From: Acaryochloris sp. CCMEE 5410
GTDB taxonomy: Bacteria > Cyanobacteriota > Cyanobacteriia > Thermosynechococcales > Thermosynechococcaceae
Length of the DNA: 64,000 nt
Assembly (NCBI RefSeq): GCF_000238775.2
Contig: NZ_AFEJ02000002.1
Coordinates: 62,001-126,000 of the forward strand
Direction of reading: 5' to 3'
The position numbers and the translations under genes were made by a program. Numbering within the stretch: position 1 is the first letter of the stretch; each line of letters begins with the position of its first letter. Under the pieces are notes generated by a model. The model was given only the letters and a program-made list of their open reading frames with translations. It was not told the DNA's origin and made no database searches. Below are positions 2,008 through 61,804 of this stretch, one piece after another.

Positions 2008-2517
2008 ATGGATCTTGCCAGTACAAACTACCCAGCACCCTGGGGCGTTTCCTTAAAAGCCATCTCTGGGGGCATAACGCTATTGCTCATTGGCATCGCA
2101 GTTATTGGTCTACTCACAGGACCCAAAAGCAACTGGATTTGGATCCTTAGTATGGTCGTTATCCCTCTCGGTATCGTGTTCATCACTGCCCTATTTACGG
2201 TCCGAGGCTATGCCCTGACCCCAGATACCCTATTTGTGAAACACCTCGTTTGGAATACTGAAATACCCTTACAAGGTTTACAATCCATTGAAGCGGATTC
2301 TAATGCCATGGAAGGATCGATCAAAACGATGGGCAATGGGGGATTGTTTAGTTTTTCCGGCTCCTTTCGAAACAAACGATTGGGGGCCTACCGCGCCTTG
2401 GCAACGGATATGCGACGATGCGTCGTTCTTAAGTTCGATCAAAAGGTGGTTGTCATTACTCCAGACAAACCAATGGATTTCGTCAATCAGGTCAAAGCCT
2501 TAAAAGATATGGCATAA
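2008..2517 (+). CDS. PH-like domain membrane protein
   Basis: This is a two-part protein. Two hydrophobic helices lie near the N-terminus (about residues 17-38 and 45-65), followed by a bacterial PH-like domain starting at YALTPDTLFVKHLVWNTEIP. The domain contains the WNTEIPLQGLQSIE strand-turn and a terminal helix with NQVKALKDMA. This arrangement is common in small membrane proteins of unknown function. I chose the ATG at 2008 because AGAGGT sits seven bases upstream; an in-frame GTG at 1999 would add three residues. The next gene is convergent. The biochemical role is unknown. Confidence 0.7.
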   Translation: MDLASTNYPAPWGVSLKAISGGITLLLIGIAVIGLLTGPKSNWIWILSMVVIPLGIVFITALFTVRGYALTPDTLFVKHLVWNTEIPLQGLQSIEADSNAMEGSIKTMGNGGLFSFSGSFRNKRLGAYRALATDMRRCVVLKFDQKVVVITPDKPMDFVNQVKALKDMA

Positions 2518-2529
2518 GCATGGCTTGGC

Positions 2530-3747
2530 CTAATCCTCTAAAACTTGCAGTACCGCTTTAGGTGCAAGCTTATCTTTGAACCAGATTAATCGAGCAGGCG
2601 TATTATTAAAATTTACGCCCGCTTTATCCAGATTGAGCCGTTCTGAAATCGCTAAAATTAGGTCTGTTCGATCCGCCTGTCGAACCTGAGAAAACTTCTT
2701 TTTCAAATACTCTGGTCGCCAATATCCAACTATTTCTAATAAGAACGTCCGACCATCCGGGTGAACAAGACGAAAGTCTGGAATCATCACGCTTCCAGGT
2801 ATAGGAATCAGATCAATTTCACGCTCCAATTTCCAGTCCGTTTTGGTTTTCTGCCAGCGTTCAGCAAAGCTAGCTTCCAACATACTGTCATAGGGTTTAC
2901 CCGGTGGATAGTGACTGACTAGACCACATTCAGAATCTAAGGCAAATCGACTGGTTCGCTGTTTTTTTGAATAGGTGTCTTTGCTGGTTAAGGTTGCGGT
3001 TAAGCTCCATTTTGTAACATGCAATAACGCGGGTAACAATTTTGCCAAAGCTAGTCCATAACGGGTACTGGCGCTGAATACACTGGCGGGTCCATCAATC
3101 TTAAGGGTAAACCCTTGATCCGCATCGCCCTCAATGTAGGCCATCAGGCTAAACAACTTTAGATAGCGAAACAGGAGCTTATATTCTCCCGGGTCATTCC
3201 GATGGGCATTGATAATGATTTGAGTCGCTTTGTAGAAAACGCCTTGAACCTGAGACAAGTTATAGCGATGAAGCAACGCCTCCGGGGTAGGGGCATCGAA
3301 GGTTGTCAAGATTTGATTGTCGGGTCGATCGGCATACAGCCCTTCTCGGATCTGAATTGCGCTAACATCTCGATCTAACTCCTGACTCAAGTTAACGGCT
3401 AGTCGTTCTAGGGTCTGGGTTGTGGCTTGAGGGCTGGGTACAGTCTGGGCGGACAGGGTAAACACCCGTTGCCGCAACATAGGTGGATCGAGAGGGCTAA
3501 TGACTTCAAAGGTGGAAAAGCCAGTGGATAAGAGATGGGCCAGTCCTCGCTTCACTCGGTAATCCGTTCCGTCCCCTTCCAGATCTTGGAGCCGCTGATT
3601 TAATTCACCTCGGGTTTGATTGCAGGCCGATTTGAAGCAGTCGATCGCTTCGGTTGCGATCGCAACATTCCCTGCATTTATTGCCAACCGTTTCGGGACA
3701 AGTGCTTCACCCTGATAGCGATGCATCAATAGGTCTGAGGGCAGCAT
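2530..3747 (-). CDS. DUF790 (Bax1-type) nuclease
   Basis: This 405-residue protein matches the DUF790 family. The N-terminus MLPSDLLMHRYQGEALVPKRL is characteristic, and the C-terminal half carries a PD-(D/E)XK-type nuclease core: IPDFRLVHPDGRTFLLEIVGYW near residues 318-339. In archaea the homologous Bax1 is a DNA nuclease that works with the XPB helicase in repair. That partnership is family knowledge; no helicase gene lies next to it here. It is the second gene of a two-gene unit: the leucine-rich-repeat gene ends three bases before this start codon, so the two are probably co-transcribed. Function as a structure-specific DNA nuclease is inferred. Confidence 0.8.
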   Translation of the reverse strand: MLPSDLLMHRYQGEALVPKRLAINAGNVAIATEAIDCFKSACNQTRGELNQRLQDLEGDGTDYRVKRGLAHLLSTGFSTFEVISPLDPPMLRQRVFTLSAQTVPSPQATTQTLERLAVNLSQELDRDVSAIQIREGLYADRPDNQILTTFDAPTPEALLHRYNLSQVQGVFYKATQIIINAHRNDPGEYKLLFRYLKLFSLMAYIEGDADQGFTLKIDGPASVFSASTRYGLALAKLLPALLHVTKWSLTATLTSKDTYSKKQRTSRFALDSECGLVSHYPPGKPYDSMLEASFAERWQKTKTDWKLEREIDLIPIPGSVMIPDFRLVHPDGRTFLLEIVGYWRPEYLKKKFSQVRQADRTDLILAISERLNLDKAGVNFNNTPARLIWFKDKLAPKAVLQVLED

Positions 3748-3750
3748 GTC

Positions 3751-4974
3751 TTACCCCTTCGCGCTATTTTGCAGATAGTTTTTGATGGCGTTAGGTCCCC
3801 GTTCCCATAGCACTTCTAGCTCTGATCGAAGGGGGTTGTTGGATAGATTAAGGGTTTTGAGATTATCCAATGTCCCGAGAGAAAGGGGGAGATCAGTCAA
3901 ATTGTTGTGGCTCACATTCAGACTTTTCAACTGAGTGAGTTCACCGATCCAAGGAGGGAGTGACCTTAACTCACAAGCGACAAACGTCAATTGCTCCAAC
4001 AGGCGACAACCGCGAAGTGCCGCGGGAAATACCTGCAAAGGAACCGGTTGGTCTGGGTCTAAATTGAATATGAACTGCTTGAGATTTTGTAATTCCCCGA
4101 TGGATTCTGGAAGCTGACGGATGCGATTGCCAGCAATTCCCAAAGTGGTTAACGCAGCCAAACGCCCCCAGGCTTCAGGAAGATGGGTGAGCTGATTGTT
4201 ATAGGCCAACAACGACGTCAAATTCACTAAATTACAAATTTGCGGCGGCAGGGATTGAAGTTGATTGGATTGAATATCCAAACTCGTCAGTGGGGTGAGC
4301 GAACCCAACGCTGCAGGTAATTCACTCAACTGGTTAAAGGACAGGTCCAAGGAGCGCAAGTCTGTTAATGTCCCTAACCACTCTGGCAGAGTCTTCAAAT
4401 GGTTAAAAGAGAGATTTAATGACTCCAATCCCTCAAGTGATCTCCAAGCAGGGGGGATTTCATTCAATCCGGTACTGGTAATTTCGAGGGATCGCAACCC
4501 CGTCAACAATCCCAACTCCTCTGGCCACTGAGCCATGGAATTGTAGGAAAGCTGCAGTTCTTGGAGGTTCTTCAGCTTCCCGATAGACGAGGGTAGATGT
4601 ACCAGTTGGTTAGAAGCTAAATTGAGCGATCGCAACTGTGAGAATGCACCTATAAATTCCGGTAGTTCCACCAGGGCATTGCCAGTCAGATCGAGGGATT
4701 GCAACTGAGATAAATAGCCTAGAACATCCGTCAGGATAGGAAGTCGGTTACGGGCCAAGTCCAACACTTGGAGCTGAGTCAGTTGCCCCAAAGCCTTGGG
4801 CAACCGCATCAGTTCATTTTCAGAGAGATATAGAGATTTCAACTGAGAGAGGGAACCAATCGAGTCTGGTAGATCACTCAAGCCGATATCACTTAAATCT
4901 AGTTCCGCTGCCTCTTGCAGGCGAGCAATATTTATCAGCCTTTCGGCTTCTTGATAGGCTGAATTTTTTTCCAT
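3751..4974 (-). CDS. Leucine-rich repeat protein (407 aa)
   Basis: Nearly the whole protein is made of about 23-residue leucine-rich repeats with consensus LxxLxxLxLxxNxLxxLPxxLGxL. At least 13 run from about residue 25 to 390, with one irregular repeat around 288-325 where the spacing is longer. There is no signal peptide or membrane segment, so it is probably a cytoplasmic protein-binding scaffold of the PIRL/small-GTPase-associated type, but no GTPase (Roc) domain follows. It is the first gene of a pair with the DUF790 nuclease (three-base gap), suggesting it binds or regulates that nuclease or a shared partner; this is inference. Confidence 0.85.
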   Translation of the reverse strand: MEKNSAYQEAERLINIARLQEAAELDLSDIGLSDLPDSIGSLSQLKSLYLSENELMRLPKALGQLTQLQVLDLARNRLPILTDVLGYLSQLQSLDLTGNALVELPEFIGAFSQLRSLNLASNQLVHLPSSIGKLKNLQELQLSYNSMAQWPEELGLLTGLRSLEITSTGLNEIPPAWRSLEGLESLNLSFNHLKTLPEWLGTLTDLRSLDLSFNQLSELPAALGSLTPLTSLDIQSNQLQSLPPQICNLVNLTSLLAYNNQLTHLPEAWGRLAALTTLGIAGNRIRQLPESIGELQNLKQFIFNLDPDQPVPLQVFPAALRGCRLLEQLTFVACELRSLPPWIGELTQLKSLNVSHNNLTDLPLSLGTLDNLKTLNLSNNPLRSELEVLWERGPNAIKNYLQNSAKG

Positions 4975-58332: not shown

Positions 58333-58983
58333 TTATTCAGCATGGGTTTCTTTGGTTTGTTCTCGGATCACTTCACTCCAGTTATCGTCTTTGATCGCCG
58401 ACTCCAAATTCTGACGCCGTTCTGCTTCGCTCTGGGGCTGGGTACTGCCAGCAACACCTAAAGCCATGGCCTTTTGCAACTTCACCTTTTTCTCTTCATA
58501 GGCTTGCCGCTCTTGAGCAGACATGGCTTGAATCGCTGCATCCTTGACCGTGCCAGCCCATTTACCATCTCCGGTATTTCCAGGGGGAAGACTGGGGAAA
58601 GCTGCGATCCATTCATCTCTTAACTGCTCCATTTCAGCCCGTTTGGGAAATTTAAAGGGCTGGACTTTAACTTGGGCGCAAATCTCCTCGCCATGTTGGG
58701 AAATATGGCTCTTCAAAGAGAGGGAAACATTGCGGGAATAGTTTACGTATTGAGGATTACCTGCTTGATCAAAGACCGCATAAACCCCCGCAATCTTGGC
58801 TTCTCCAGAGGCTTCACACCAAGTGGCAACAGGAATCGGAGATTCAGCAGCTTGATCTGTGGTTGGGGTCGTTGTGGTTTCAGCAGTATGTTCGTCATCG
58901 GAGCTGTAGAGAAAATCATGCAATCCTTGATGGGCTTGCGGTACATTTTGATGCTCAATTGCATTCGGATTTTCGATACCCAC
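58333..58983 (-). CDS. GIY-YIG-like domain protein, probably non-catalytic
   Basis: Residues 65-140 follow the GIY-YIG pattern: GVYAVFDQAGNPQYVNYSRN stands for GIY...GKxYIGxSxN, then LKSHISQHGEE. The second motif is YV rather than YIG and the usual catalytic Arg/Glu cannot be assigned, so endonuclease activity is doubtful. Residues 1-60 are low-complexity and acidic, and the C-terminal 60 are helical and charged. The family occurs in cyanobacteria and plastids. Function unknown. It is divergent from the ECF41 module. Confidence 0.65.
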   Translation of the reverse strand: MGIENPNAIEHQNVPQAHQGLHDFLYSSDDEHTAETTTTPTTDQAAESPIPVATWCEASGEAKIAGVYAVFDQAGNPQYVNYSRNVSLSLKSHISQHGEEICAQVKVQPFKFPKRAEMEQLRDEWIAAFPSLPPGNTGDGKWAGTVKDAAIQAMSAQERQAYEEKKVKLQKAMALGVAGSTQPQSEAERRQNLESAIKDDNWSEVIREQTKETHAE

Positions 58984-59057: not shown

Positions 59058-59084
59058 TGTCACAGCTGGGCCACCTCTCCCGTC
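59058..59084 (+). promoter_or_regulatory. ECF41-type promoter
   Basis: TGTCACA at 59058-59064 and CGTC at 59081-59084 are separated by exactly 16 bases. This matches the promoter known for ECF41 sigma factors (TGTCACA, 16 bases, CGTC). It lies 34 bases before the ATG of the AhpD-like gene that heads the module with sigJ, so the sigma factor probably controls its own operon. Confidence 0.8.
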
Positions 59085-59117
59085 TCCTATATAGACATGT
59101 AATTTTGGAGAGATTCC

Positions 59118-59579
59118 ATGACGCAACGATTCGATATCAGTCAATCCGATCCAAACGCATATCAAGCCATGGTGGGGTTGGAAACCTATCTCCGTAAGTG
59201 CGGCCTGCAGCCACAATTACTGCATTTAATTAAAACAAGAGCTTCTCAGATCAATGGCTGTGCCTTCTGCATTGATATGCACACCAAAGAAGCCAGAGCC
59301 GATGGCGAATCGGAACAACGGCTCTATGGGCTCAGTGCCTGGGCAGAAACCCCCTTCTTCACCCCTGCGGAACGAGCTGCCCTAGCCTTAACTGAGGTGG
59401 TCACCCGGATCTCTGAGCAAGCGGTTCCTGATGCGGTCTATGCTGAAGCGTGCCAACATTTCTCTGAAACAGAAGTGACACAATTATTGATGGCCATTGT
59501 GACTATCAATAGTTGGAATCGACTTGCGATCGCATCCCAAGTCCTACCCGGCAGCTATACCGTACCTGTCGCCGCTTGA
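59118..59579 (+). CDS. AhpD-like/carboxymuconolactone decarboxylase-family protein
   Basis: The protein has 153 residues and an AhpD core. The redox pair CAFC is at residues 48-51 in INGCAFCIDMHTKEAR, followed by LYGLSAWAETPFFTPAERAALALTE, which is typical of stand-alone AhpD-like peroxidase-reductase proteins. It starts at ATG 59118 with TTGGAGAGA upstream. The gene is the first of three (AhpD-like, membrane protein, sigJ). ECF41 sigma factors are commonly found next to such genes, which are their targets. Confidence 0.9.
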   Translation: MTQRFDISQSDPNAYQAMVGLETYLRKCGLQPQLLHLIKTRASQINGCAFCIDMHTKEARADGESEQRLYGLSAWAETPFFTPAERAALALTEVVTRISEQAVPDAVYAEACQHFSETEVTQLLMAIVTINSWNRLAIASQVLPGSYTVPVAA

Positions 59580-59587
59580 GCCACATC

Positions 59588-59992
59588 ATGAATCATCAAA
59601 CAGCCCCCATCACCCGAGTGGTGATCGCCCATACTCTGATCAGTGCTCTACATGGCCTAGCCCATCTGCTGATTCCGGTTCCGATCTCAGTCCTACAAGC
59701 CCTGTTTATTGCGGGGGTGATTTCAGCCCTGCAGATCGTTGCCGTGCTTTTGGTCTGGAGACAGCAGGTTAAATGGGCTTCAACGGTGCTGTTAGTATCA
59801 ATGGCAGGGTCCTTACTCTTTGGTCTATACAACCACTTTGTTGTTATCAGTCCAGATCATTTTTTTCAGATGCCTCCCACTAGCTTGGGAGTTCTATTTC
59901 AGGTCACGGCAGTTCTACTGACCGTCTCGGAAGGCATTGGTATTGGAGTCAGTGTATGGGCACTCAACCCTCGACAGCCTCTCAGTCCCTAA
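59588..59992 (+). CDS. Small four-helix membrane protein in the sigJ operon
   Basis: From ATG at 59588 (MNHQTAPITRVVIAHTLISA) the 134 residues form about four hydrophobic helices with His residues in ALHGLAHLL and LYNHFVV. The family is unknown to me. It starts eight bases after the AhpD-like gene and overlaps the start of sigJ by 37 bases, so translation is likely coupled. It may be a redox or sensing membrane partner of the module. Confidence 0.75.
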   Translation: MNHQTAPITRVVIAHTLISALHGLAHLLIPVPISVLQALFIAGVISALQIVAVLLVWRQQVKWASTVLLVSMAGSLLFGLYNHFVVISPDHFFQMPPTSLGVLFQVTAVLLTVSEGIGIGVSVWALNPRQPLSP

Positions 59993-60876
59993 CAGATGAT
60001 TTTTTGGAGCATTGGTCGCTTTTGTTTGCGATCGCATATCGGATGCTGGGTACCGTTATGGATGCCGAGGACATGGTGCAGGATACCTTCCTCAAATGGC
60101 AGACTGTATCTAAATCCCAGGTGCGGTCTGCTAAAAGCTATTTGACCACCATCATTACTCGGCTGTGTATTGATCGGTTACGATCCGCTCAAGTCCAGCG
60201 CGAGCAATATATTGGCCCTTGGCTACCGGAGCCGATTGTCACTGCTTTCTCAGCTGATCCCCACTATCAGGTGGAACAGGCTGACTCCCTAACCATGGCC
60301 TTTTTGGTCATGCTAGAGCGACTCTCTCCCATTGAGAGAGCCGTTTTTCTATTACGAGAGATCTTTGACTATGACTACGACGAAATTGCACCTATTGTTG
60401 AAAAGAGTACGGTGAACTGTCGCCAAATTGCTCGCCGTGCTCGTCAACAGGTAACGAAACCGCGATCACGGTTTTCAGCTTCCCCTGAACAGCATCACCA
60501 ACTCACCTTGAAATTTATGCAGGCTTGCCAGCAGGGAGAGATGGAGGATTTACTCCATTGTCTGGCTGATGATATTACCCTCTGGTCTGATGGCGGGGGG
60601 CAAGTTACCGCAGCCCTTAAGCCCATCCAGGGTTCAGTAAAAGTGAGCGGTTTCCTCCGTGCTATCTATCGGTATCAGAGAAAATTGGGGTTCATTCCAG
60701 ATCTTGAATTAGTACAGGTCAATGGCCAGACTGGCATTCAGTTCTCCATCGCAGGCCAAGTGGAAACAATTGCTGTTTTAGAAACGACCGACCAACAGAT
60801 CATATCGATCTTTTTTATCAGAAATCCCCAGAAATTAAGGATAGAGCAAATCCATCATTCCAGCATTTTAGATTGA
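59956..60876 (+). CDS. sigJ: ECF41-type RNA polymerase sigma factor (SigJ)
   Basis: This is an extracytoplasmic-function sigma factor of 306 residues. The sigma2 domain (LFAIAYRMLGTVMDAEDMVQDTF, about 20-80), a linker with WLPEP (89-93) and sigma4 (about 125-185, ERAVFLLREIFDYDYDEIAPIV) are followed by a SnoaL-like C-terminal domain (about 190-306). WLPEP and the terminal NPQKL are hallmarks of ECF41, whose C-terminal domain regulates activity in place of an anti-sigma factor. It overlaps the membrane-protein gene, and a matching promoter lies before the operon. Confidence 0.92.
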   Translation: MGTQPSTASQSLTDDFLEHWSLLFAIAYRMLGTVMDAEDMVQDTFLKWQTVSKSQVRSAKSYLTTIITRLCIDRLRSAQVQREQYIGPWLPEPIVTAFSADPHYQVEQADSLTMAFLVMLERLSPIERAVFLLREIFDYDYDEIAPIVEKSTVNCRQIARRARQQVTKPRSRFSASPEQHHQLTLKFMQACQQGEMEDLLHCLADDITLWSDGGGQVTAALKPIQGSVKVSGFLRAIYRYQRKLGFIPDLELVQVNGQTGIQFSIAGQVETIAVLETTDQQIISIFFIRNPQKLRIEQIHHSSILD

Positions 60877-61327: not shown

Positions 61328-61804
61328 ATGTCTGTCTTGTTTCAGAAAATCGTGTCCGGTGGCCAAACAGGGGCTGATCGAGCTGCCTTGGATTGGGCTA
61401 TTGTTATGGAAATTGAACATGGGGGATGGTGTCCCCAAGGACGACAGGCAGAAGATGGGATTATTCCAACCTGTTACCCCTTACAAGAAACGCCCTCTTC
61501 AGACTATGCTCAACGAACAGAATGGAATATTCGCGACTCTGATGCTACAGTCATCTTTTCCCTGTCATCCTTTCTTAGTGGAGGCACCCTCTTAACCCAG
61601 CAATTGGCCAAGCAAATCCAAAAGCCTTGGATACATCTCCATGCAGGTATGGGGATAAAGAATGGCGCTGTTGTTCTCCATCAGTTTGTCAGCCAGTTCT
61701 CGATTAAAGTCCTAAATATTGCTGGCCCCCGACAGTCGGAAGAACCCACCATTGGCGAGTTCTTGACCCAAGTGATGAACACTGCCTTTACTAGAAATAA
61801 TTAG
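61328..61804 (+). CDS. Putative molybdenum-carrier-like protein
   Basis: The protein has 158 residues and a Rossmann-like fold: KIVSGGQTGADRAALDWAI near the start binds the nucleotide/phosphate, followed by GWCPQGRQAEDG, WNIRDSDATVIF and SGGTLLTQQLAK. It belongs to the putative molybdenum carrier family (MoCo carrier, lysine-decarboxylase-like fold). The family name rests on algal and plant relatives; the activity here is unproven. It follows the 85-residue gene by seven bases and precedes the SRPBCC gene by 19. Confidence 0.85.
   Translation: MSVLFQKIVSGGQTGADRAALDWAIVMEIEHGGWCPQGRQAEDGIIPTCYPLQETPSSDYAQRTEWNIRDSDATVIFSLSSFLSGGTLLTQQLAKQIQKPWIHLHAGMGIKNGAVVLHQFVSQFSIKVLNIAGPRQSEEPTIGEFLTQVMNTAFTRNN

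Follow-up and report, generated by a model that had tools for sequence, protein, structure and literature searches.

ECF41 sigma factors form a widespread group whose physiological role and signal are, to our knowledge, largely unknown. As described in the main text of the survey of Wecke (2012; PMC3426412), they act on the promoter TGTCACA-n16-CGTC, their targets are COE genes, and they are controlled by their own C-terminal extension, with no anti-sigma gene; positive autoregulation is the general expectation. In 29% of the 373 cases considered there the COE gene comes before the ECF gene and the promoter lies before the COE gene. Hypothetical genes between the two were noted, four of them being cupins. 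The gating of ECF41 factors by the C-terminal domain is reviewed in PMC8999054.

Here we analyse an operon of this kind in Acaryochloris sp. CCMEE 5410. It lies in a stretch of 64,000 nucleotides (contig NZ_AFEJ02000002.1, positions 62,001 to 126,000), which we call the window and whose first letter is position 1. Textbook features of ECF41, and so not new, are the promoter, the enzyme-first order, the fused sigma domain and the implied autoregulation, and an arrangement of COE gene, hypothetical gene and ECF41 gene is already allowed for in the main text of the 2012 survey. What is new is the middle gene. It encodes a membrane protein that is a recurrent component of what is otherwise a real and expected ECF41 operon.

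An ECF41 operon in Acaryochloris

The features of the operon are collected in Table 1. The first-pass annotation had proposed an exact ECF41 consensus promoter immediately 5′ to an AhpD-like gene, and this is indeed present; transcription would be expected to start near 59090-59093. The pattern TGTCACA-N16-CGTC has one exact match within the window, on the forward strand, where shuffled sequences give a mean of 0.01. The annotation had also proposed a genome scan for further sites. This revealed none on either strand of the 8.09 Mb genome, and the reversed-pattern control was likewise zero. When the pattern was loosened to TGTCACA-N15-17-YGTY there were 15 sites compared with 23 in the control, showing no enrichment. 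The information therefore lies only in the strict site, and we claim no wider regulon. The position of the promoter is common to the window and two further Acaryochloris genomes, and the same element is found 5′ of ECF41 operons in other genera. Directly upstream of it is a divergent gene (58333-58983, reverse strand) with a weak GIY-YIG-like match (E 0.12), and other Acaryochloris genomes share the conserved sequence just 5′ of the promoter, even G389, where the module has been lost.

Table 1. Features of the Acaryochloris operon, in window coordinates
Feature	Position	Strand	Matches and details
ECF41-type promoter	59058..59084	+	TGTCACA (59058-59064), spacer 16, CGTC (59081-59084); −35 and −10 elements, respectively
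AhpD-like / carboxymuconolactone decarboxylase (CMD) family enzyme ('COE' gene)	59118..59579	+	PF02627, TIGR00778
134-aa membrane protein, four predicted helices, invariant H22/H26/H83	59588..59992	+	no named profile
Reading-frame overlap, membrane protein/sigma, 37 nt	59956..59992	+	GGAG 5′ of sigma ATG
ECF41 (SigJ-type) sigma factor, fused C-terminal SnoaL/NTF2-like domain	59956..60876	+	TIGR02957, NF007214, 5xe7

The first gene is preceded by a GGAGAG ribosome-binding site. Its product matches PF02627 with E 1.1e-20 (73.8 bits against a cut-off of 23) and TIGR00778 with E 1.5e-15, and carries the CxxC motif CAFC within INGCAFCIDMH. It thus has both the domain and the motif of the AhpD-like CMD family, and is the kind of neighbour (CMD, oxidoreductase or epimerase) that an ECF41 gene should have. 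The AhpD gene of the metagenome-derived Cyanobacteria bacterium QS_4_48_99 (L034, L008; around L034:5705-6157) is interrupted by an in-frame TAA about 88 codons from its start, either a true nonsense mutation or an assembly error; the rest of the module is intact.

The annotation described the operon as ending in a SnoaL-fused ECF41 sigma factor, and the profile searches bear this out. The protein scores 359.0 bits against TIGR02957 (cut-off 323.25), covering positions 2-278 of 281, and 326.4 bits against the SigJ profile NF007214 (cut-off 271); it is the single ECF41 family member above cut-off in the whole genome. Residues 89-93, in the linker between sigma2 and sigma4, read WLPEP, a motif that does not vary among 10 of 10 sequences, and some 130 residues extend beyond sigma4. 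Taken alone the Pfam SnoaL_2 match of this extension is weak (E 0.08, below cut-off). We nevertheless regard the fused SnoaL/NTF2-type domain as real, judged from sequence and model, because the TIGR02957 match covers it, phmmer aligns the protein with Mycobacterium tuberculosis SigJ (5xe7, E 2e-45), and a Foldseek search with the AlphaFold2 model (of moderate confidence, pLDDT 73) places SigJ 5xe7 first (E 3e-13) and also matches NTF2-type ketosteroid isomerases. Located 3′ of the operon is a gene of the circularly permuted YpsA SLOG family (61328-61804; PF12694, E 5.8e-58).

The overlap of the membrane and sigma genes by 37 bases was correctly noted in the first-pass annotation. It is identical across three Acaryochloris genomes, as is the GGAG before the sigma start. 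A shorter overlap of 4 nt, ATGA, in which a possible sigma start codon shares bases with the stop codon of the membrane gene, is present in Microcoleus, Tychonema, Chlorogloeopsis and QS_4_48_99. The membrane gene of Acaryochloris, Aphanocapsa and Phormidium ends in TAA and has no such ATG, and sigma there likely starts at an ATG further 5′, within the conserved region that encodes the C-terminus of the membrane protein; the frames of Aphanocapsa and Phormidium were read by hand. The 37-nt overlap is a form of the usual ATGA coupling specific to the Acaryochloris lineage, that is, ordinary translational coupling.

A conserved membrane protein with four predicted helices

The middle gene had been called an unrecognised membrane protein, and this was correct; it belongs to a recurrent, conserved family that has no named profile. 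No Pfam or NCBIfam profile, those of known anti-sigma families included, matches it above cut-off, and searches of the PDB by sequence and by fold returned nothing significant, the best being 3kav (E 0.43). CopD (PF05425), DUF5985 (PF19447) and DsbB (NF002552) are also small multi-helix membrane proteins. We rejected membership of all three, as the matches are at chance level and far below the curated cut-offs; for CopD/DUF5985 the best E value is 0.023 in some members of the family, with no match for the window protein. AlphaFold2, using an alignment of 29 sequences, predicts a four-helix bundle (mean pLDDT 89.8) with helices at residues 5-25, 35-57, 61-85 and 99-126.

Three histidines, H22, H26 and H83, show no variation across the 29 aligned sequences, and are retained in distant members including those of Chloroflexota. 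H15 and H91 are nearly invariant. A set of five invariant histidines, as first read from the 29 sequences, does not hold, since H91 is replaced by Q in L116 and by R in L101, and H15 by N in L113. The HxxxH motif of H22 and H26 marks where helix 1 ends, and the end of helix 3 carries H83. By the positive-inside rule the termini and the loop between helices 2 and 3 would be cytoplasmic, so that H22/H26 and H83 would share the outer side of the membrane, probably periplasmic or lumenal. The three residues point to a site for a metal, heme or quinone, the idea of a cofactor being based solely on the conserved histidines.

Distribution and operon contexts

How general is the membrane gene in ECF41 operons? 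A search for the family beside ECF41 had been proposed, and it was found across Cyanobacteria and Chloroflexota. A single-sequence search of genome contigs with the membrane protein gave no match, while an alignment-based search of 84,980 genomes yielded 33 loci. Among 386 cyanobacterial genomes the membrane gene occurs in 7 and ECF41 in 6, and the two are adjacent in 3; with the query genome left out, the probability of the co-occurrence by chance is p ~0.002. In total the gene lies within ECF41 operons of at least 10 cyanobacterial and 3 Chloroflexota genomes. The full module is present in two other Acaryochloris genomes (G388 and G391).

The partner enzyme varies. AhpD is the first gene of the operon in the window and in L020, L021, L030, L034, L039, L043 and L101, and an epimerase takes that place in two cyanobacterial operons (L022 and L028). 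The three Chloroflexota loci have an epimerase-type partner, each in its own order: promoter-membrane-ECF41-epimerase in L046, with the promoter directly 5′ of the membrane gene, promoter-epimerase-membrane-ECF41 in L113, and ECF41-epimerase-membrane in L112. Throughout the 17 examined loci that bear an ECF41 gene, in both phyla, the promoter motif lies 5′ of the operon, exact in 16 and with a TGTC −10 element in the other, so that 10-11 of the 11 bases match. There are also ECF41 operons with no membrane gene (L059, L062, L063, L099 and L100). One of these, L099 of Nostoc sp. NMS2 (2237-4507), has the promoter followed by the gene of a seemingly unrelated 226-aa protein and then a broken-up flavodoxin/FMN-reductase-like frame, which could be either another type of target or a decaying COE gene.

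Loss of the sigma factor and decay of the promoter

In about 18 more cyanobacterial loci the membrane gene is kept, mostly beside the epimerase, with no ECF41 gene at the locus. A genome-wide search for ECF41 in the same genomes found none in most of them; Nostoc sp. NMS2, Nostoc sp. T09 and Mastigocoleus have one elsewhere. The membrane gene is nonetheless under purifying selection where sigma is absent, with a median dN/dS of 0.24. Such an epimerase-membrane pair on plasmid p057_G of Nostoc sp. C057 (L117) lies among genes for nitroreductases, an SDR, a universal stress protein and a hexameric tyrosine-coordinated heme protein, surroundings that fit redox or electrophile stress.

Upstream of the epimerase in the loci that have no sigma gene the ribosome-binding region is often recognisable, and the promoter carries mutations or has been deleted in part. 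The best promoter match there is 7-9 of 11 bases, which is the level of shuffled sequence, compared with 10-11 where sigma is present. Decay of the promoter beside a lost or broken sigma gene is seen both in the Nostoc-type loci and in Acaryochloris G389 and G387. In G389 the promoter reads TGTCAAA/CATC and a fragment of AhpD remains; in G387 it has become TGTCATA, and both the membrane and the sigma genes contain deletions. These are separate decays within Acaryochloris. Other loci retain part of the system. L045 keeps an ECF41 remnant, and L031 has a near-perfect promoter with a remnant of 16-30 residues. On plasmid pB of Chroococcidiopsis sp. CCNUC1 (L116, 4145-5461) a gene for an IS701-family transposase splits sigJ just 3′ of the membrane gene, and the promoter is exact. 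With promoters kept beside broken sigma genes, L031 and L116 look like recent losses, and in L116 the ECF41 switch was apparently lost very recently.

A Fisher test of the joint loss of promoter and sigma gives p 4e-9, but we do not treat the association as overwhelming, since it is pseudo-replicated, with few independent events on the tree. Mapped onto the membrane-protein tree, presence or absence of sigma requires just two changes of state, giving two independent pairs, so the p value is not to be taken at face value; the data are good qualitative and weak statistical evidence. Within that limit of few independent losses, promoter decay after loss of sigma supports dependence on the cognate factor. 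The positive autoregulation suggested from the sequence of the window has held up in these comparative tests, given the motif in 17/17 ECF41 loci and its decay after sigma loss.

What does the membrane protein do?

We consider that this is an autoregulated ECF41 operon in which the membrane protein acts as an effector beside the COE enzyme and not as an anti-sigma factor, and put the probability of this reading at about three in four. Gene order, promoter, families, conservation and the retention of the enzyme-membrane pair after sigma loss are read from the DNA itself; the positive feedback, the activating signal, the cofactor and the reaction are inferred. The C-terminal SnoaL-like domain of the sigma factor would probably keep it inactive until a signal relieved this inhibition; a small molecule, redox-related or electrophilic, would be plausible as the signal. 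Once freed, the factor would act on the single TGTCACA-N16-CGTC promoter and transcribe its own operon, yielding more of the enzyme, of the membrane protein and of sigma itself. The membrane protein would then work with a COE enzyme of either AhpD or epimerase type.

Membrane anti-sigma factors such as RsiW and RseA hold or release other ECF factors, and the membrane protein could be a sensor or anti-sigma factor doing the same for ECF41. The gene stands immediately 5′ of sigma, with a shared stretch of 37 or 4 nt in most loci, and such adjacency with translational coupling is typical of a stoichiometric regulator. Yet the five ECF41 operons noted above manage without it, it persists under purifying selection where ECF41 is absent, and the short loops and termini of the AlphaFold2 model would leave little space for a sigma-binding domain; moreover, ECF41 factors are described as controlled by their own C-terminal extension in the main text of Wecke (2012; PMC3426412). 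We therefore judge a regulatory role unlikely. A function as effector with the enzyme is more likely because the gene is kept without sigma under purifying selection and is absent from other ECF41 operons.

That absence, together with a sporadic occurrence in 7/386 cyanobacterial genomes, might instead mark the membrane gene as an unrelated passenger of the operon. A passenger would hardly be expected with two unrelated enzyme types, in two phyla and in three gene orders, nor to remain beside the epimerase after loss of sigma with a dN/dS of 0.24, and we find this quite improbable. Least probable of all, in our view, is a relic motif, with transcription of the operon driven from another promoter. 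The promoters kept beside broken sigma genes in L031 and L116 would be in keeping with a relic; however, three Acaryochloris genomes conserve an intact sigma gene together with an intact promoter, and two others show decay of both.

Beyond the role of effector we offer a bolder and tentative proposal, which is rather more apt to be wrong than right. The protein might be the founder of a family of four-helix membrane redox proteins in which H22, H26 and H83 bind a metal, heme or quinone and which pass electrons or substrate to and from cytoplasmic partners that can replace one another, of AhpD or epimerase type, ECF41 being the usual and dispensable switch. A membrane partner with conserved histidines and two target enzymes, which outlives its sigma factor, provides a concrete handle on the function of ECF41 operons, directing attention towards the membrane or the periplasm, as well as towards redox chemistry. 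Promoter dependence can be followed along a natural series of loci in which the sigma gene is intact, interrupted or lost.

Comparison with known systems

The main text of PMC3426412 describes no membrane family in the position between COE and ECF. In the accessible literature that we searched, we found no description of one in any ECF41 context. The closest solved structure to the sigma factor is that of M. tuberculosis SigJ (PDB 5xe7), with ~30% identity and a fused SnoaL_2 domain, and the AhpD-like enzyme is of the same protein family as PA0269 (2o4d) and Atu0492 (2gmy), solved CMD relatives that are similar over the full length (E ~1e-42 to 1e-39). The ECF41 systems of Wecke (2012) share with the Acaryochloris operon the promoter TGTCACA-n16-CGTC, the WLPEP linker and the fused C-terminal domain. 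As far as the main text describes them, Ecf41Bli-ydfG and Ecf41Rsp-RSP_0606 likewise have the enzyme first and sigma last in one direction, and each system apparently has a single target operon. The Acaryochloris operon differs from the systems described there in having a conserved membrane-protein gene between the enzyme and its sigma factor.
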